From positions 1 to 64,000 of the forward strand of contig NZ_JARPQB010000001.1 of NCBI RefSeq assembly GCF_029478665.1: a stretch of 64,000 nt of DNA, in the 5' to 3' direction. Positions 261 through 36,260 of the stretch are shown here, piece after piece. The notes beneath the pieces were generated by a model. It saw nothing but the letters and a program-made list of their open reading frames with translations, searched no databases and was not told the DNA's origin. A program made the translations under genes and the position numbers. Source of the DNA: Pseudomonas entomophila. GTDB taxonomy: Bacteria > Pseudomonadota > Gammaproteobacteria > Pseudomonadales > Pseudomonadaceae. Each line of letters starts with the position of its first letter. Position 1 is the stretch's first letter.

Positions 261-1367
261 TCACCCCAGGTCCGCCAGCGGATGGCGCCCCTCCCAAACC
301 TTGGTGAAATGCGCCTCGACCACCGCCGCCGGCACCTGCGCCACATCCGGCCAGTGCCAGTGCGGCGTGTTGTCCTTGTCCAGCAACCGCGCCCGCACCC
401 CTTCGCTGAACTCCGGGTGGCGGCAGCAGTTCAGGCTCATGGTGTACTCCATCTGGAACACCTGGGCCAACGACAGGTAGCGCGCACGGCGGATCTGCTC
501 CCACACCAGGTGCGCGGTCAGCGGGCAACCTTCGTGCAAGCGCTGGCCCGCCGTCGCCAGCAACGGGTCGGCATGCCGGGCCAGGCCACTTAGCGCACGC
601 CAGGCGGCCACCGGGTCGGCCACATCGAGTACTTCATCGATCACCGCCCGCCGCGCCAGCCACTGCCCCTCGGGCAACTCGGCGCCCGCGCGGTGCTGTT
701 CGGCCTTGAGCAGGCTGTTCAATTGCAACGCCGTCTGTTCCTGCCAGTTCAATTGCAGCAGCTCTTCGATCAGCGCCTCCTGCTGAAACTCGCCAAGGAA
801 ACGGTCGGCCAGCCCCAGGTCCAGGGCATCGCGGGCATTGATCGGCGCACCGGTCAGCCCCAGGAACAACCCCAGCTTGCCCGGCAGCCTGGCAAGGAAC
901 CAGCTGGCGCCGACATCCGGATACAGCCCGATGCTGATTTCCGGCATGGCCAGGCGGCTGCTGGGGGTGACGATGCGCACGCCGGCCCCCTGCAACAGCC
1001 CCATGCCGCCGCCCAGCACATGGCCATGGCCCCAGCACAGCAGCGGCTTGGGGTAGGTGTGCAGGCGATGATCCAGGCGGTATTCATGGGCGAAGAAGGT
1101 GGCGGCCAGCGGCGGCACGCTGCCAGGGTGTTCACGGCAGGCCTGGACCAGCGCGCGCACATCGCCACCGGCGCAGAAGGCCTTGGGCCCATTGCCGCGC
1201 AGTATTACGCAAACGATACCCGGGTCCTGCGCCCAGGCCTGCAGGTGCTCGTCGAGCACCTCGATCATGGGCAGGGTCAGGGCATTGAGCGCCTTGGGCG
1301 CATCGAGCGTGGCAATGCCGATGCGGGCGCCTTCGGCGCCGATGAGTACCTCGCAGTGAATGGCCAT
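261..1367 (-). CDS. Enoyl-CoA hydratase/isomerase family protein, 3-hydroxyisobutyryl-CoA hydrolase-like
   Basis: A 368-residue crotonase-fold protein. The oxyanion-hole segment FCAGGD is at residues 64-69, a second glycine-rich segment HGHVLGGGMG near 114-123, and the catalytic-region MPEISIGLYPDVG near 141-153. The PDVG motif and the length (crotonases are usually about 260) point to the 3-hydroxyisobutyryl-CoA hydrolase branch, which acts in valine breakdown by freeing 3-hydroxyisobutyrate from its CoA ester in the cytoplasm. I place the start at the Met of MAIHCEV; an in-frame Met seven codons upstream is possible. It is divergent from ung across about 130 bp and has no obvious operon partner. 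A plain enoyl-CoA hydratase is the alternative. Confidence 0.85.
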   Translation of the reverse strand: MAIHCEVLIGAEGARIGIATLDAPKALNALTLPMIEVLDEHLQAWAQDPGIVCVILRGNGPKAFCAGGDVRALVQACREHPGSVPPLAATFFAHEYRLDHRLHTYPKPLLCWGHGHVLGGGMGLLQGAGVRIVTPSSRLAMPEISIGLYPDVGASWFLARLPGKLGLFLGLTGAPINARDALDLGLADRFLGEFQQEALIEELLQLNWQEQTALQLNSLLKAEQHRAGAELPEGQWLARRAVIDEVLDVADPVAAWRALSGLARHADPLLATAGQRLHEGCPLTAHLVWEQIRRARYLSLAQVFQMEYTMSLNCCRHPEFSEGVRARLLDKDNTPHWHWPDVAQVPAAVVEAHFTKVWEGRHPLADLG

Positions 1368-1495
1368 GGGCAACCTCGCGCAAGTCATCCCCTCAGTATG
1401 GCCCGTCGCGCCGTGGCTGCCGGTCGCCGGTCGGATCGATTGACAAGCCGGCGAGGCTTTCCTAGTGTCGCGCCACTTTGCTATTGGATGCCCCC

Positions 1496-2188
1496 ATGAC
1501 CGACGACGATCGCATCAAGCTCGAACCCAGCTGGAAGGCCGCGCTGCGCGCCGAGTTCGAGCAGCCCTACATGCACCAGCTGCGCGAGTTCCTGCGCCAG
1601 GAATATGCCGCCGGCAAGGAGATCTACCCACCCGGGCCGCTGATCTTCAACGCCCTGAACTCCACGCCGCTGGACCAGGTTAAGGTGGTCATCCTCGGCC
1701 AGGACCCGTACCACGGGCCGGGCCAGGCCCACGGCCTGTGCTTCTCGGTGCAGCCCGGGGTGCCCGCGCCACCGTCGTTGGTGAACATCTACAAGGAGCT
1801 GCAGCGCGACCTGAACCTGCCCATTCCCAACCACGGCTACCTGCAGAGCTGGGCCGAGCAGGGCGTGCTGCTGCTCAACACCACCATGACCGTGCAGCGC
1901 GCCAACGCCGCGTCCCACGCGAAAAAGGGCTGGGAGTTCTTCACCGACCGGATCATCCAGGTGGTCAGCGAGCAGTGCCCGAACGTGGTGTTCCTGCTCT
2001 GGGGCGCCCATGCCCAGAGCAAGCAGAAGTTGATCGATGGCACCCGCCACCTGGTGCTCAAGTCGGTGCATCCGTCGCCGTTGTCGGCGTATCGCGGGTT
2101 CTTCGGCTGTGGGCATTTCAGCCGTGCCAATGGCTTCCTGCAGCAGCATGGGATGGCGCCGATCGATTGGTCGTTGCCAGTGCTGTAA
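1496..2188 (+). CDS. ung: Uracil-DNA glycosylase
   Basis: Removes uracil from DNA by cutting the N-glycosidic bond, the first step of base excision repair. The 230-residue protein has the family 1 water-activating motif GQDPYHG at residues 68-74 (catalytic Asp70) and the HPSPLS minor-groove loop at 192-197 (His192). Length matches the usual 220-230. The ATG of MTDDDRIK is chosen; an upstream in-frame codon would add six residues. The gene is alone, divergent from the crotonase gene, and is followed by the accessory segment. Confidence 0.96.
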
Positions 2189-24074: not shown

Positions 24075-25514
24075 ATGTCAATACCACGCTTGAAAACCTA
24101 TCTCTCGATGTTCGCCGCCGTGCTCATGCTCGGCCAGGTGCTCAGCGCCCAGGCCGAGGAGTCCTTGCCGGACTTCACCACCCTGGTCGAACAGGCCTCG
24201 CCGGCGGTGGTCAACATCAGTACCAAGCAGAAGCTGCCGGACCGCCGCGTCGCCGCCGGGCAGATGCCCGACCTCGAAGGGCTGCCGCCGATGTTCCGCG
24301 AGTTCTTCGAACGCAACATGCCGCAGCAACCGCGCTCGCCCCGTGGCGACCGCCAGCGTGAGGCGCAGTCGCTGGGTTCTGGCTTCATCATCTCCGACGA
24401 CGGCTACGTGCTGACCAACAACCACGTGGTGGCCGACGCCGACGAGATCATCGTCCGTCTCTCCGACCGCAGCGAGCTGCAGGCCAAGCTGGTCGGCACC
24501 GACCCGCGCACCGACGTGGCCCTGCTCAAGGTCGAGGGCAAGAACCTGCCGACCGTAAAGCTGGGGGACTCCGAGAAGTTGAAAGTCGGTGAGTGGGTAC
24601 TGGCCATCGGCTCGCCGTTCGGCTTCGACCACTCGGTGACCAAGGGTATCGTCAGCGCCAAGGGCCGCACGCTGCCCAATGACACCTATGTCCCGTTTAT
24701 CCAGACCGACGTGGCCATCAACCCAGGCAACTCCGGTGGTCCGCTGTTCAACATGAAGGGCGAGGTGGTGGGCATCAACTCGCAGATCTTCACCCGTTCC
24801 GGTGGCTTCATGGGCCTGTCGTTCGCCATCCCGATCGACGTGGCGATCGACGTGTCGAACCAACTGAAAAAAGACGGCAAGGTCAGCCGCGGCTGGCTGG
24901 GCGTGGTGATCCAGGAGGTCAACAAGGACCTCGCCGAATCGTTCGGCCTGGACAAGCCAGCCGGCGCCCTGGTGGCCCAGGTCCTGGAAAACGGCCCGGC
25001 AGCCAAGGGCGGCCTGCAGGTGGGTGACGTGATCCTGAGCATGAACGGCCAGCCGATCGTCATGTCCGCCGACCTGCCGCACCTGGTCGGTAGCCTCAAG
25101 GATGGCGAGAAGGCCAAGCTTGAGATCATCCGCAACGGCAAGCGCCAGAACCTCGACATCACCATCGGCGCGTTGCCGGAAGATGACGCCGACATCGGCG
25201 CTGGCCTGGGTGCCGACGGCAGCGCCGAGCGCAGCAGCAACCGTCTGGGTGTGTCCGTGGCCGACCTGAGCGCCGAGCAGAAGAAGTCGCTGGAACTCAA
25301 GGGCGGCGTGGTCATCAAGGAAGTCCAGGACGGCCCCGCCGCAGTGATCGGCCTGCGTCCGGGCGATGTCATCAGCCACCTGAACAACCAGGCCATCGCC
25401 TCGGCGAAGCAGTTCACCGAGATCGCCAAGGAGCTGCCGAAGAACCGTTCGGTGTCCATGCGCGTGCTGCGCCAGGGGCGTGCGAGCTTCATTACCTTCA
25501 AATTGGCTGAATAA
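24075..25514 (+). CDS. mucD: Periplasmic serine protease MucD (DegP/HtrA family)
   Basis: A 479-residue HtrA protease. A signal peptide (residues 1-28, ending LSAQAEE) is followed by a trypsin-like domain with catalytic His117 (TNNHVV), Asp147 (DPRTDVALLKV) and Ser220 (NPGNSGGPL), then two PDZ domains at about 270-370 and 380-475. It degrades or refolds damaged envelope proteins and negatively affects AlgU activity. The ATG at 24075 follows GGGAG; the open frame upstream has no signal features. A strong terminator follows. Confidence 0.95.
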   Translation: MSIPRLKTYLSMFAAVLMLGQVLSAQAEESLPDFTTLVEQASPAVVNISTKQKLPDRRVAAGQMPDLEGLPPMFREFFERNMPQQPRSPRGDRQREAQSLGSGFIISDDGYVLTNNHVVADADEIIVRLSDRSELQAKLVGTDPRTDVALLKVEGKNLPTVKLGDSEKLKVGEWVLAIGSPFGFDHSVTKGIVSAKGRTLPNDTYVPFIQTDVAINPGNSGGPLFNMKGEVVGINSQIFTRSGGFMGLSFAIPIDVAIDVSNQLKKDGKVSRGWLGVVIQEVNKDLAESFGLDKPAGALVAQVLENGPAAKGGLQVGDVILSMNGQPIVMSADLPHLVGSLKDGEKAKLEIIRNGKRQNLDITIGALPEDDADIGAGLGADGSAERSSNRLGVSVADLSAEQKKSLELKGGVVIKEVQDGPAAVIGLRPGDVISHLNNQAIASAKQFTEIAKELPKNRSVSMRVLRQGRASFITFKLAE

Positions 25515-25620: not shown

Positions 25621-25693
25621 TTCGCCAGCAAGGCTGGCTCCTACGGGACCGGGCAGGCTGCAAATGCTGTAGGCGCCGGCCTTGCCGACGAAC
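25621..25693. repeat. Two REP half-elements upstream of lepA
   Basis: TTCGCCAGCAAGGCTGGCTCCTAC (25621-25644) and a diverged TGTAGGCGCCGGCCTTGCCGACGAAC (25668-25693). The first is an inverted type, the second direct, so the two resemble a decayed REP pair. A -10-like TACAAT at 25741-25746 further down may belong to the lepA promoter, but no clear -35 is seen. Confidence 0.65.
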
Positions 25694-25800
25694 ACGGGCG
25701 CAACTGATAGAGGAATCTCCCATATCCCCGCAGCTTGAGGTACAATTCCCGGCTATTTTTCGGCGGGCGTCCGGCTCGCAGCCTTTTCGAGTGTTGACCC

Positions 25801-27600
25801 GTGAGTGATTTGAGTCATATCCGCAATTTCTCCATCATCGCCCACATCGACCATGGCAAGTCGACGCTGGCTGACCGTTTCATCCAGATGTGCGGTGGCC
25901 TGACGGCGCGCGAAATGGAAGCCCAGGTCCTCGACTCCATGGACCTGGAGCGCGAGCGCGGGATCACCATCAAGGCCCACAGCGTCACGCTGCACTACAA
26001 GGCGCAGGATGGTAAGACTTACCAACTGAACTTCATCGACACCCCCGGCCACGTCGACTTCACCTACGAAGTCTCGCGCTCGCTGGCGGCGTGCGAGGGT
26101 GCGCTGCTGGTGGTCGACGCCGGCCAGGGCGTCGAGGCGCAGTCGGTTGCCAACTGCTACACCGCCATCGAGCAGGGCCTGGAAGTCATGCCCGTGCTGA
26201 ACAAGATGGACCTGCCCCAGGCTGACCCGGACCGCGTCAAGGACGAGATCGAGAAGATCATCGGCATCGACGCCACCGACGCCGTGGCCTGCAGCGCCAA
26301 GAGCGGCATGGGCGTCGACGAGGTGCTCGAGCGCCTGGTACAGACCATTCCCGCGCCGGAAGGCGAAATCGATGCGCCATTGCAGGCGCTGATCATCGAC
26401 TCCTGGTTCGACAACTACCTGGGCGTGGTCTCGCTGGTGCGCGTGCGCCAGGGCCGCGTCAAGAAGGGCGACAAGATCCTGGTCAAGTCCACCGGCAAGG
26501 TGCACCTGGTCGACAGCGTCGGTGTGTTCACCCCGAAACATACGCAAACCGCTGATCTGAAAGCCGGTGAAGTAGGCTTCATCATCGCCAGCATCAAGGA
26601 CATTCACGGCGCGCCGGTGGGTGACACCCTGACGCTGTCGAACACCCCTGAAGTCGAAGTGCTGCCAGGCTTCAAGAAGATCCAGCCGCAGGTCTACGCC
26701 GGCTTGTTCCCGGTCAGCTCCGACGACTTCGAAGACTTCCGCGACGCGCTGCAGAAGCTGACGCTGAACGACTCGTCGCTGCAATACATGCCGGAAAGCT
26801 CCGACGCCCTGGGCTTCGGCTTCCGCTGCGGCTTCCTCGGCATGCTGCACATGGAGATCATCCAGGAGCGCCTGGAGCGCGAATACGACCTGGACCTGAT
26901 CACCACCGCCCCGAGCGTGATCTACGAGCTCGAGCTCAAGACCGGCGAGACCATTACCGTCGACAACCCGTCGAGGCTGCCGGACGTCTCGGCGGTCAAC
27001 GATTTCCGCGAACCGATCGTCACCGCGACCATCCTGGTACCCCAGGAGCACCTGGGCAACGTCATCACCCTGTGCATCGAGAAACGTGGCGTGCAGCGCG
27101 ACATGCAGTTCCTCGGCAGCCAGGTGCAGGTGCGCTACGACCTGCCAATGAACGAAGTGGTCCTGGACTTCTTCGACCGCCTGAAATCGACCAGCCGCGG
27201 CTACGCCTCGCTGGACTATCATTTCGATCGCTACCAGTCGGCCAACCTGGTCAAGCTGGACGTGCTGATCAACGGTGACAAGGTCGATGCCCTGGCCCTG
27301 ATCGTGCACCGCGACAACGCCGCCTACAAAGGCCGTGCGTTGACCGAAAAGATGAAGGAACTGATCCCTCGGCAGATGTTCGACGTGGCGATCCAGGCAG
27401 CCATTGGCGGCCAGATCATCGCGCGGACAACCGTCAAGGCGCTCAGAAAGAACGTACTGGCCAAGTGCTACGGTGGCGACGTCAGCCGTAAGAAGAAGCT
27501 GCTGGAGAAGCAGAAGGCCGGTAAGAAACGCATGAAACAGGTGGGTAACGTGGAGATTCCACAGGAAGCCTTCCTCGCCGTGCTCAGGTTGGATAGCTAG
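25801..27600 (+). CDS. lepA: Elongation factor 4 (LepA)
   Basis: A 599-residue translational GTPase. The GTP-binding domain (1-185) has [13 protein letters not shown] near residues 14-26, DTPGH near 80-84 and NKMD near 134-137. The LepA-specific C-terminal domain ends in [18 protein letters not shown] and similar basic stretches. It acts on ribosomes and affects initiation or back-translocation under stress. It starts with GTG. lepB follows after five bases, the usual pairing in proteobacteria. Confidence 0.96.
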
Positions 27601-31052: not shown

Positions 31053-31096
31053 GCACGACGTATGCTGTGGGCCTCAATCTTCAGGAGAGCCCTTTC

Positions 31097-31837
31097 GTGA
31101 CTCACAGCAACCGCATGCTTCTCGGTGTCAACATCGACCACGTGGCGACCCTGCGCCAGGCCCGGGGCACCCGCTATCCGGACCCGGTCAAAGCCGCGCT
31201 GGATGCCGAGGAAGCGGGTGCCGACGGCATCACCGTGCACCTGCGCGAAGACCGTCGACACATCCAGGAGCGCGACGTACTGCTGCTCAAGGACGTGCTG
31301 CAGACCCGCATGAACTTCGAGATGGGCGTCACCGAGGAGATGATGGCGTTTGCCGAGCGGATTCGCCCGGCGCATATCTGCCTGGTGCCGGAAACCCGCC
31401 AGGAATTGACCACCGAAGGTGGCCTGGACGTGGCCGGCCAGGAGGCACGGATCAAGGCGGCGGTGGAGCGCCTGTCGCGCACGGGTGCCGAGGTGTCGCT
31501 GTTCATCGATGCCGACGAGCGGCAAATCGAGGCCTCGCGCCGTGTCGGTGCCCCGGCCGTCGAGTTGCATACCGGGCGTTATGCCGATGCCGAAACCCCG
31601 ACCGAGGTGGCCGAAGAGCTTCAGCGTATTGTCGATGGCGTTGCGTTTGGCGTGGGGCAGGGCTTGATCGTCAATGCCGGGCATGGCCTGCATTACCACA
31701 ACGTCGAGGCCGTGGCTGCGATCAAGGGCATCAACGAGCTGAACATCGGCCATGCGTTGGTGGCCCATGCCTTGTTCGTTGGTTTCAAGGCGGCGGTGGC
31801 AGAGATGAAGGCGCTGATCGTCGCGGCTTCGCGCTGA
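31097..31837 (+). CDS. pdxJ: Pyridoxine 5'-phosphate synthase
   Basis: A 246-residue TIM-barrel enzyme that condenses 3-amino-2-oxopropyl phosphate with 1-deoxyxylulose 5-phosphate to give pyridoxine 5'-phosphate. Recognised from [16 protein letters not shown] near residues 8-23, [13 protein letters not shown] near 44-56, and the glycine-rich end GHGLHYHNV. The GTG start at 31097 is chosen because AGGAGA lies eight nt upstream; the upstream ATG in frame has no such site. Confidence 0.95.
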
Positions 31838-31959: not shown

Positions 31960-33345
31960 TCATTCGCTTCTGAATACCAATGTGAACCGGGTCGGTCCTT
32001 CGGCCTGGCTGCACACCTCGACCCGCCCGCCATGCAACTGCATGATCGACTTCACGATCGCCAGCCCCAACCCGGTCCCGCCTTCCAGCCGCGAACGACC
32101 GGCCCCCACCCGGTAGAACCGTTCAAACAGATGCGGCTGATGCGCCTCGGCGATCCCCGGCCCCTGGTTCTCCACCCAGACCGCGACCTCATTCCCCCGC
32201 CGCTCGATACCCACGACCACCGCCTGACCTTCCGGGCTGTGGCGCAGGGCATTGCTCAGCAGGTTTGACAGTGCCCGCTGGAACATCAGCCGGTCGACCA
32301 AGGCCGTGCCCCAACCCTGGAGCTCCAGGGTGATGTCCTTGAGCTCGGCACTGAACGCAAACAACTCGCTCACCCGCACGACTTCGTCAGCCAGCGCCAC
32401 GGGCAACAGCGCCACCTGCGTCTGCGGCTGGCTGACCTGGGCGAGGAACAGCATGTCGTTGATGATGCGGTTGAGCCGGGTGAGCTCCTCGACGCTGTCT
32501 TCCAGCGCCTCGCGGTAGCGCTCGCCATCGCGCTCGCGGGCCAGTGTCACCTGGGCTTTGCCCATCAGGTTGCCGATCGGGGTGCGCAGTTCGTGGGCCA
32601 GGTCGTCTGAAAACTGCGACAACTGGCTCACCCCTTGGTCGAGTCGATCGAGCATGACGTTGATGGCCCGCGCCAAGTCGGCCAGTTCCACAGGCAGGTC
32701 GCTGTCGGGCAGGCGATGGCCCAGGTCTTGAGCCGATACCTGGCCGGCGATGCGACGGAAGTGGCGCAGGGGACGCAGGCCGCGCTGCACCAGTTTCCAG
32801 GCGGCGATGCCGATCAACAGCAGCAGCAATGGCAGGGCCAGCAGGGTGGAGTTGAGGTACGCCTGCAGCAGCGCATTGTCGTCGTCGCGGTTGAGCGACA
32901 TCAGCACCTTGACCGGGGTGTCGTCGCGCAGGCGCATCAGGCTGCTGGCGGTAAGGATCTGGTTGCCGTCGGCATCTCGCCATTCATGGAAGGTCAGCCG
33001 GGCGTCGGCGTCCAGCGTCAGAAGATGCTGTGACTCCAAGGCCGGGCCGAGGCTGATCAGGGCCGGGTGGCGCGCATCGACGGCCATCACGCTGAGGCTG
33101 AGGTTGTCGTGCCCCATGACCAGGTCGAGCAGCGGGTGGGCGCGGGTGCCCAGGTCGTCGCTGCGCAGGTCGACCCGCAGGTTGTGCTCGACCTGCAGCA
33201 TCTTGCGCGCCAGGTCCTTGCGTGCGCGGCTGTCCAGTTCGTGGTCGAGGGCGAACACCGCCAGGCAGGCCAGCAGCAGGACCAGCGCCGCGCCCAGCAG
33301 GGTGACGGTCAGGCCCAGGCGCAGGGACAGGCTGGCGCGTTTCAA
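31960..33345 (-). CDS. Heavy-metal-type sensor histidine kinase
   Basis: A 461-residue kinase with membrane segments at about 10-33 and 164-184 and a periplasmic sensor of some 130 residues between them. HAMP is followed by the phosphoacceptor helix with His251 in [11 protein letters not shown], the N box ([10 protein letters not shown]), ENQGPGI and [12 protein letters not shown]. It belongs to the CopS/CzcS/CusS type of metal sensor. The start is a TTG whose TG overlaps the response regulator stop; the same plan is seen in many such pairs. The metal sensed cannot be told from the sequence. Confidence 0.88.
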
Positions 33346-34016
33346 GGCCGGGCCTCGAGCACATAGCCGACGCCGCGCAGGGTGTGGATCAGCTTGTCCT
33401 CGAAGGGGTCGTCGATCTTCGCCCGCAGGCGGCGGATCGACACCTCGACCACGTTGGTGTCGCAGTCGAAGTTCATGTCCCACACCAGCGAGATGATCTG
33501 GGTGCGCGACAGCACCTCGCCGCTCTGGCGCATCAGCAGGTGCAGCAGGGCGAACTCCTTGGCGGTCAGGTCGATGCGCTGGCCACCGCGCCAGGCGCGA
33601 TGGCGGCCGGGGTCGAGCTCCAGGTCGGCGACTTTCAGGGTGCTGGGCTGCAGGTGCTGGTCGTTGCGCCGCAGCAGGCTGCGGATGCGCGCCAGCAGTT
33701 CGGGGAACTCGAAAGGCTTGAGCAGGTAGTCGTCGGCGCCCAGGTCAAGGCCCTTGACCCGGTCGGCCAGGCGACCGTGGGCGGTGAGCATCATGATCCG
33801 TGTGGACGATTCGGCGCGCAGGCGCTGCAGCACGCCCCAGCCGTCCAGTTCGGGCAGGTTGACGTCGAGGATCACCAGGTCGTAGGGCTGCTGGCGGGCC
33901 AGGTGCAGGCCGTCGGTGCCGGTGTGGGCGCAGTCGACCACGTAGCCGTTCTCGCGCAGCCCTTGCTGCAGGTAGTCGGCGGTACGGGGTTCGTCCTCGA
34001 TGATCAGTAGGCGCAT
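33342..34016 (-). CDS. Heavy-metal-type response regulator
   Basis: A 224-residue OmpR-family regulator with acidic residues E7-D8-E9, phosphorylation site Asp51 in [13 protein letters not shown] and the [12 protein letters not shown] segment near 101-112. The winged-helix domain ends [11 protein letters not shown]. The sequence is of the CopR/CzcR/IrlR type that controls copper, zinc or cadmium efflux. It is co-transcribed with the overlapping kinase gene. Its promoter carries a MerR/CadR-like operator (34046-34076). No efflux genes lie in the window, so targets must be elsewhere. Confidence 0.9.
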
Positions 34017-34045
34017 GGTCGGGCTCGGTCGGAAGAATGGCGGCG

Positions 34046-34076
34046 ATTCTCAACCCTGTAGCTGTATCAGGGTCAA
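34046..34076 (-). promoter_or_regulatory. MerR/CadR-type promoter-operator before the metal two-component genes
   Basis: Reading on the minus strand, TTGACC (-35, 34076-34071) is followed by a 19-bp spacer and GAGAAT (-10, 34051-34046). The spacer is filled by the interrupted palindrome ACCCTG...CAGGGT (34053-34073, full ACCCTGATACAGCTACAGGGT minus one base of 21). A 19-bp spacer with an internal ACCCTNTA-like palindrome is the mark of promoters controlled by MerR-family metal sensors such as CadR, ZntR or PbrR. It begins transcription about 30 nt before the regulator start. Confidence 0.7.
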
Positions 34077-34184
34077 GGGCTGCGATGTTACGACATGTGG
34101 CGAGCGAATCCGCGCAGATAACCGATCTGTAATGGGCGGGTCATGTGGCTGAAAGGGGCGCGGGGCGCCCCTCGATCAATGCGA

Positions 34185-36260
34185 TCAGGCGGTGCCGATC
34201 TCGCCGCCGTCGTTGCGCTGGATCACCACGGTCGCGGCGCGTGGGCGTACCGAGCTGCCGGCCGGGGTGGTGTCGGTGGCCTTGTCGGTGTAGGGCCAGT
34301 TGTCCGGGTGCTGGATGTTGATGAACAGTGTCTTGTTGTCCGGGGTGAAGGTGATGCCGGTTACTTCGCAGCCGTTGGGGCCGACGAAGAAGCGCCGCAG
34401 GTCGGCCTGGTTGGTGGCGTTGACCGGGACCTGCTTGCCCGTGGCGTCGACCAGGTCGGTGGGGATCACCGCCAGCAGCTGGTCGTTGGTGTAGTTGGTC
34501 AGGGTGGTTTCGCCGTTGTCGGTCTCGAACCACAGCACGCCACGGCTATCGAAGCTCATGCCGTCGGGGCTGGCGAACTGGTTCAGCTCGGTCAGGCCGG
34601 AGCGGTTGATGTCCGGGGCGCCGGCGGCGTTGGCGCCGAACACGAAGATGTCCCAGGTGAAGCTCTTGTGATCGTCGCTGTCGTGCCAGCGGATGATATG
34701 GCCATGACGGTTCGGGCCGCGCGGGTTGGCCGCATCGACCTTGGCGGCGGTGCGCGCGCTGTTGTTGGTGAGGGTGAGGTAGACGTCGCCGTTGAGCGGG
34801 TTGACGGCGGTCCACTCCGGGCGGTCCATGGGCGTCGCGCCCACGGCGTCGGCGGCGCCACGGGTGTTGAGGATGATCCCCGGCAGGTCGCCGAACAGCG
34901 CGCCGAGCGTGCTGCCGTTGGTGGTCGCGGTGGCGACGTCGAGCAGCAGCCACACGCCCTTGCCGTCGGCGTTGAAACGCGCCACGTAAAGCTTGCCTTT
35001 GTCCATGTACTTGGCGCCGGTGGCCAGGCGGTCGGCGGGGCTGGCGTCGGCCGGGTCCCAGACCGCGTCGGAGACGAACTTGTAGAGGTATTCGTTGTTG
35101 GAGTCGTCGCCGGTGTACCAGACCAGTGGCTTGCCCGCCACCGGCAGGCCCGGGCAGCAGCCTTCGTGGCGGAAGCGGCCGAGGGCGGTGCGCTTCACCG
35201 CCAGGGTGGCGCTGTTGTAGGGGTCGATCTCGACGATGTAGCCGTAGGTGCTGGCCTCGTTGCGGTAGTCGCTGGTGGCGCCGGCGCCGGTCGGGGTGAT
35301 GTTGAAGCGGGCGAACTCATCGGCCACTTCGCTGGCGTCGCCGGCCGCGCTTTCCCATTTGTACTGGCCGCTTGAGCTGCCCACGCCGATGCGGGTCTGG
35401 TTGGCCGGGCGGGTGCCCTTGTTGACGAAGATGCCGGGCCAGTTCTCCTCGCAGGTCAGGTAGGTGCCCCACGGGGTGTAGCCGTTGCCGCAGTTGTTGT
35501 TGGTGCCGCGGCACTGGGTGCCGCTGGGCGAGAACTTGGTCTTGACGTGGTCGGTGCCGCGCAGGGGGCCGGCGATGTTCATCAGCGAAGCGGTGGTGAA
35601 GCGGCGGTTGAGCGGGTCGTTCTGGATCACCTGCCAGCGGCCATTGACCTTGGTCAGGCGCACTACGCCGGCGCCGTGGGCGTTGATCTCCTTGCGCACT
35701 TCCTCGGCCGGGCGCTTGCCGCTGGCGTCGGTGGTCGGGCCGGCCGGGTGCAGGGCCGCGGTGTCGATGTATTCGAAGTTGATCGCCAGCAGGCCGTCGT
35801 CGGAACTGCCGTTGATGGGGAAGAAGTGCATGCCGTCATGGTGCATGCCCATGGCGTTGGCCTGGTCGGTGGAGGTGTTGCTGCCGTCGGACTTCCAGGG
35901 GTTGCCGTTGCTGTTGAGCGGCGTGCCCCAGGGGGCGAGCACGTAGGCACTGTAGCCGGCGGCGACCACGCAGGCGTCGGTGCGCGAGCCTGCGATGGAG
36001 TTGAAGCCCAGCTTGAGCTTGGGTTTTTCCGGCTTCGGATCCGGGGTGGTCACCGGTGGCTCGCTGACCGGATCGTCATGGTTGGAGCCACCGCCGCTGT
36101 CGAAACAGCCGCTCAGCCCGGCGCCGGCGATCATCGCGATGGCCGCGCCGAGGCTGCCGCGCACCACGCTCCGACGGCTCAGGTAGGCGTCCATGACGCT
36201 GGCCATCGGCAGGTTGTCGCTCGGGTTGCGGTCCAGGTTATCGCCGGATTCTCGACTCAT
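34185..36260 (-). CDS. phoX: Alkaline phosphatase PhoX
   Basis: A 691-residue DUF839/PhoX-family phosphatase, a calcium- and iron-dependent enzyme that frees phosphate from organic esters. A Tat signal contains Arg29-Arg30 (LSRRSVVRG), followed by a hydrophobic stretch and LSGC with Cys52 in a lipobox-like position. Family segments include TYLTCEENWPG, EIDPYNSATLAVKRTALGRFRHEG (first part) and WFETDNGE. AAGGA lies eight nt before the ATG. It is divergent from uxpA; a weak Pho-box match reads toward it. In P. putida, PhoX is known to be released by the Xcp type II system, matching its neighbours here. Confidence 0.92.
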   Translation of the reverse strand: MSRESGDNLDRNPSDNLPMASVMDAYLSRRSVVRGSLGAAIAMIAGAGLSGCFDSGGGSNHDDPVSEPPVTTPDPKPEKPKLKLGFNSIAGSRTDACVVAAGYSAYVLAPWGTPLNSNGNPWKSDGSNTSTDQANAMGMHHDGMHFFPINGSSDDGLLAINFEYIDTAALHPAGPTTDASGKRPAEEVRKEINAHGAGVVRLTKVNGRWQVIQNDPLNRRFTTASLMNIAGPLRGTDHVKTKFSPSGTQCRGTNNNCGNGYTPWGTYLTCEENWPGIFVNKGTRPANQTRIGVGSSSGQYKWESAAGDASEVADEFARFNITPTGAGATSDYRNEASTYGYIVEIDPYNSATLAVKRTALGRFRHEGCCPGLPVAGKPLVWYTGDDSNNEYLYKFVSDAVWDPADASPADRLATGAKYMDKGKLYVARFNADGKGVWLLLDVATATTNGSTLGALFGDLPGIILNTRGAADAVGATPMDRPEWTAVNPLNGDVYLTLTNNSARTAAKVDAANPRGPNRHGHIIRWHDSDDHKSFTWDIFVFGANAAGAPDINRSGLTELNQFASPDGMSFDSRGVLWFETDNGETTLTNYTNDQLLAVIPTDLVDATGKQVPVNATNQADLRRFFVGPNGCEVTGITFTPDNKTLFINIQHPDNWPYTDKATDTTPAGSSVRPRAATVVIQRNDGGEIGTA

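Follow-up and report, generated by a model that had tools for sequence, protein, structure and literature searches.

The CadR-to-czcRS3 circuit is already published for Pseudomonas putida KT2440, where Liu et al. (2021) studied the operon of PP_1438 and its kinase, orthologous to the one considered here (PMC8469834). CadR protects CTTGACCCTG-N9-CAGGGTCAAG, at positions -35 to -59 relative to the start codon of czcR3; a probe with altered arms is not bound. The promoter is strongly induced by Cd, weakly by Pb and Zn, and not by Cu; deletion of cadR abolishes czcRS3 expression, and complementation restores it. CzcR3, for its part, binds and activates czcCBA1 and czcCBA2, and has a footprint on its own promoter at -116 to -101, where autoregulation is weak. 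Deleting czcRS3 leaves the activity of this promoter unchanged and lowers the MIC four-fold for Cd and for no other metal tested. The transcription start is reported at -39, which by the paper's own numbering falls inside the CadR footprint.

Other described promoters resemble this one in part. In MerR-type promoters, as a rule, the palindrome lies between the -35 and -10 elements within a spacer of 19-20 bp (PMC1526738). The cadA promoter of P. putida and P. aeruginosa shares with czcRS3 a palindrome with identical outer arms between -35 and -10, and the regulator CadR; it governs a pump gene transcribed divergently from cadR, whereas the czcRS3 promoter drives a two-component system, and its arms reach further, into CTA/TAG, in which the czcRS3 operator differs. 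In P. aeruginosa PAO1 a cytoplasmic zinc sensor also acts on czcR, which it activates; there, unlike CadR here, the sensor is Zur, bound downstream of the transcription start (PMC9827704, in part), and czcR is missing from the CadR sites that PMC12301328 (section 3.3) tabulates for PAO1.

We analyzed 64,000 nucleotides of Pseudomonas entomophila (assembly GCF_029478665.1, contig NZ_JARPQB010000001.1, positions 1 to 64,000), referred to as the window, within a genome of 5.84 Mb in 136 contigs. Judged from its letters, its conservation and the analogy with KT2440, positions 34046-34076 are very probably a CadR-controlled promoter of the czcRS3 operon. The relevant features are as follows.

31067-31837, strand opposite to that of the kinase, beyond czcS3: a gene that we take, from its protein, to be pdxJ; homologues traced in relatives.
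31960..33345, minus strand: czcS3, sensor histidine kinase, a frame of 461 codons with approximate start codon (TIGR01386; HisKA, HATPase_c and HAMP domains).
33342..34016, minus strand: czcR3, response regulator of 224 aa (TIGR01387; Response_reg and Trans_reg_C domains; orthologues 90-100% identical).
34046..34051, minus strand: -10 element GAGAAT, read directly; unchanged in 56 of the 65 orthologous promoters.
34053..34073, minus strand: predicted CadR operator ACCCTG-N9-CAGGGT in the 19-bp spacer, from direct reading, conservation and its match to the footprinted KT2440 czcRS3 repeat (PMC8469834, in part).
34071..34076, minus strand: -35 element TTGACC, overlapping the operator, read directly; TTGACC in 64 of 65 orthologous promoters.
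34118..34133, minus strand: CzcR box ATTACAGATCGGTTAT, with one mismatch to ATTAC-N6-GTAAT, 102-117 bases before the czcR3 start codon.
34185-36260: PhoX-type phosphatase gene (PF05787), 168 bases upstream of czcR3.

Read on the minus strand from 34076 down to 34046, the promoter is 5'-TTGACC CTGATACAGCTACAGGGTT GAGAAT-3', with a 19-bp spacer and the palindrome inside it, as in MerR-type promoters of the CadR/PbrR kind; the palindrome is 21 bp long and lies 37-57 bases from the czcR3 start codon. The first-pass annotation had its letters and coordinates right, and its assignment of a CopR/CzcR-type regulator holds as well, czcR3 scoring 350 bits against TIGR01387 (NCBI cut-off 279) and czcS3 446 bits against TIGR01386 (cut-off 293). 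No clear Shine-Dalgarno sequence is apparent in 34017-34051, between the -10 element and the czcR3 start, and conservation is low in the columns that immediately precede it.

The locus resembles KT2440 czcRS3 in the type of operon, the inverted repeat, its distance to the start codon and the upstream CzcR box, and likewise in the presence of CadR and czcCBA in the genome. This comparison uses the letters printed in PMC8469834 together with named P. putida strains, for example that of locus L043. Transposed to the window, the KT2440 footprint covers 34051-34075 and coincides with the operator. One misfit concerns the transcription start: GAGAAT ends at -30 in the window, implying a start near -22, while the -39 reported for KT2440 lies within the footprint; the discrepancy may come from different counting, from a processed end or from a genuine departure from MerR geometry. 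Unlike in KT2440, phoX lies upstream of czcRS3 in the window. The PhoX gene next to the promoter is an insertion or rearrangement, no PhoX match being found in the 80 relatives of the regulator that were fetched. Methyltransferase-like genes lie upstream of czcRS3 in L043, at the place of the PhoX gene in the window.

Among these 80 relatives, 64 (L017-L080) are putida-group orthologous loci, with a regulator identity of 90-100%, the kinase adjoining the regulator in every one and pdxJ downstream in 61, the contig ending in the other three (L019, L020, L040). This arrangement, a heavy-metal-subfamily regulator and kinase with pdxJ downstream, marks the czcRS3 operon of the putida group, and the window has it. 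The palindrome is kept in 64/64 orthologues, starting at -54 to -64; including the window, the 12 arm bases carry no mismatch in 34 loci, one in 22 and two in nine, and the central nine bases vary among relatives. Information per column averages 1.53 bits around the promoter vs. 0.41 further upstream. In the czcRS3 flanks of 17 of the loci (e.g., L054, L056, L077), matches to CzcC, CzcB, CzcA, CadA or CadR queries were obtained; pump genes may adjoin czcRS3 there, while they lie apart from it in the window. Two records labelled Pantoea and one labelled Paucimonas (L017, L048, L076) contain putida-group czcRS3 loci, and their labels are probably wrong.

The genome that carries this MerR-type promoter also encodes CadR, in a gene at 1261-1704 (minus strand) of L001, whose product matches the solved P. 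putida CadR (6jgv) with E 3.6e-91, is identical to it over residues 1-67 and retains cysteines 77, 112 and 119. The gene is divergent to cadA, and ACCCTATAGTGGCTACAGGGT lies between them, in the cadA promoter, with the same arms as the czcRS3 operator except for one base. Close CadR proteins (81-98% identity) occur in 63 of the 64 orthologue genomes (20/21 and 43/43), and CadR was also present in 6/6 non-putida genomes tested, five of them at 77-86% and the sixth at 64%. P. shirazensis (L050) yielded no close CadR (best match 38%) and no close CadA (34%). Joint loss of operator and cadR was considered for it and set aside: it would concern this single genome, and its operator is largely intact, with one of 12 arm bases changed and GACAAT as -10; an operator kept without a close CadR rather argues against the idea. 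As a separate observation, P. bharatica CSV86 (G013, L055) gave 28 CadR matches; the majority, at 46-48% identity, are nearly the same as one another and scattered through the genome, a pattern suggestive of a MerR-type gene carried by a multicopy mobile element.

The genome has nine MerR-domain genes, and the eight besides CadR keep alive the idea that the main regulator is another MerR-type protein, above all the copper sensor CueR. The next closest to CadR (L004, 37% identical) shares its contig with a CadA-like ATPase (C103:12777-14111, 35%), and in its features it appears similar to CueR. Against such a regulator, the KT2440 promoter is uninduced by Cu and silent without cadR (PMC8469834, in part), and the operator has the arms of CadR sites, the genome's own cadA promoter differing by one base; we thus regard it as very unlikely, and CadR as the regulator to be preferred. 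In this sense, the MerR-family sensor that the first-pass annotation placed at the operator can be refined to CadR. Its claim of control in trans also fits: none of the nine MerR-domain genes lies in the window, and one located elsewhere is CadR. The search for cadR homologues that it proposed found CadR, beside cadA.

The output side of the circuit is present as well. The genome gave 14 RND matches, czcA alone passing the heavy-metal family cut-off, unlike KT2440 with its two czcCBA operons, and a perfect CzcR box, ATTACAGAATTGTAAT, precedes czcC by 64-79 bases (L144, 6693-6708), so that czcCBA with its CzcR box is found in the same genome. Two further regulators (59-60% identity) showed no CadR-type site at up to four mismatches in the 7-kb stretches examined. 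The CzcR box of the czcRS3 promoter itself is found in 65/65 orthologous promoters at 0-2 mismatches, vs. about 2% of shuffles, and, together with the CzcR3 footprint at this place in KT2440, it could be taken to mean that CzcR mainly controls the operon through 34118-34133, the palindrome carrying little weight. The KT2440 promoter, however, is unaffected by deletion of czcRS3 and silenced by deletion of cadR (PMC8469834, in part), and we consider control mainly by CzcR highly improbable. The layered circuit proposed by the first-pass annotation, from a MerR-type protein to kinase and regulator and on to efflux, is supported by steps demonstrated in the KT2440 ortholog (PMC8469834, in part), and its parts, CadR, the cadA operator and czcCBA with a perfect CzcR box, were recovered in the window's genome.

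How often such a palindrome arises by chance depends on how strictly it is defined. Within the window, the exact arms at N9 spacing match once, and three matches with at most one arm mismatch were obtained against 0.21 expected, a number reached in 0/100 shuffles. On the other hand, a loose architecture, i.e., any TTGAC near a 6-bp inverted repeat spanning 19-23 bp, the -10 element not being demanded, is satisfied by 36/60 random sequences. A scan of the whole genome with a cadA-like consensus at three mismatches gave seven sites per strand, vs. eight in the reversed control, and is thus at background level, the exact cadA site excepted (C1:67220 is among the further matches). Since the loose architecture is frequent by chance, the evidential weight rests on conservation and on the experiments of others.

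The operator is also widespread in the genus. TTGACCCTGNAGNNNCTNCAGGGT occurs at up to two mismatches in 89/89 Pseudomonas genomes, the reversed control in 1/89. From the matches listed, 68 sites, mostly not of cadA type, were picked (the selection passed over the bulk of the cadA-type sites, copies on the second strand and several isolated weak sites; in L235, one of the 68, the contig ends after 357 bases), and 27 of them precede a CzcR homologue of 72-99% identity. As these sites had been chosen by their operator, the test was reversed with regulators chosen by similarity only: all 76 CzcR homologues with E up to 1e-95 (69-100% identity), present in 49 of the 89 genomes, were used. An operator at 0-3 mismatches lies within 320 bases of 44 of the 76 (43 genomes), the best match for the remaining 32 has 7-10 mismatches, and none of 1520 base-shuffled sequences reached four or fewer. 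Of the 49 genomes in which a close CzcR occurs, 43 thus carry one or more preceded by a CadR-type operator, 40/89 genomes being without a CzcR of this closeness; these counts are not independent events, since the 89 genomes are interrelated and some belong to the same species as genomes among the 64. That the palindrome of czcRS3 is a functionless coincidence, as the random sequences satisfying the loose architecture and the background-level genome scan might suggest, is next to impossible given its retention in 64/64 orthologues beside a divergent flank, the gap between 0-3 and 7-10 mismatches with 0/1520 shuffles at four or fewer, and the published CadR footprint (PMC8469834, in part).

The regulators without the operator include czcC-linked ones (L081-L083, L087-L091, L093) and additional copies (second or third) at 69-74% identity in genomes with a carrier, although the operator is present before others at 73-75%. 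In L084 and L095 czcRS is divergent to czcC; in the window, czcRS lies apart from it. On a tree of 110 regulators, 108 of them labelled, the operator label needs two changes; as 27 rows had been chosen for carrying the operator, nothing is drawn on ancestry, and the frequency claim rests on the 76-homologue test.

Several further CadR-type sites were observed. In L244 (G139:C29), a 325-aa frame, which we take to resemble an insertion-sequence transposase, lies between a CadR-type operator (24309-24332) and a czcR homologue (25655-26323), and by its arrangement this locus is an apparent natural disconnection of the circuit. A variant operator, with the right arm GTACAGGCT then GTTGAATGG, occurs in four genomes (L236, L238, L241, L246), where it precedes CadA-like ATPases of 50-54% identity. 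In L195 (G102:C1:1439255-1440855), a CadR-type operator stands before a small CxxC-rich protein, likened by description alone to the PAO1 CadR target Zrd (PMC12301328, in part).

Taken as read from the sequence, promoter, conserved operator, CadR, the cadA operator and czcCBA with its box are all in one genome, and by analogy we infer that the circuit runs in P. entomophila as in KT2440. CadR is a cytoplasmic sensor of Cd, Zn and Pb from the MerR family, and its gene lies elsewhere in the genome, next to the pump gene cadA. It would occupy the palindrome between -35 and -10, where the spacer is too long; metal-bound CadR would presumably distort the DNA so that RNA polymerase is able to start, and more CzcR3 and CzcS3 would be made. 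CzcS3, probably switched to its active state by metal beyond the inner membrane, would then phosphorylate CzcR3, and the phosphorylated regulator would switch on czcCBA via the TTAC-N6-GTAA box.

No report of CadR at czcR outside P. putida was found in the literature covered, its scope stopping short of supplementary tables, RegPrecise and most subscription journals; the genus-wide breadth of the operator is the part not found in print, and a modest extension. We find it evenly balanced whether the gating of CzcRS by a cytoplasmic metal sensor would be a Pseudomonas rule rather than something special to P. putida, for czcRS beside or apart from czcCBA, with P. aeruginosa as an exception in which Zur took over the input. 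As P. aeruginosa czcR is under Zur and absent from the PAO1 CadR table, a cytoplasmic sensor feeding CzcRS may be a rule with exchangeable sensors. The present sequence analysis confirms a circuit established in a single strain and shows its DNA signature to extend far past it. A cell with this circuit would build more of its membrane alarm for cadmium and zinc only once the metal has reached the cytoplasm. With the operator present across the genus, one can test whether this sequence of events holds generally, and how P. aeruginosa acquired its use of Zur.
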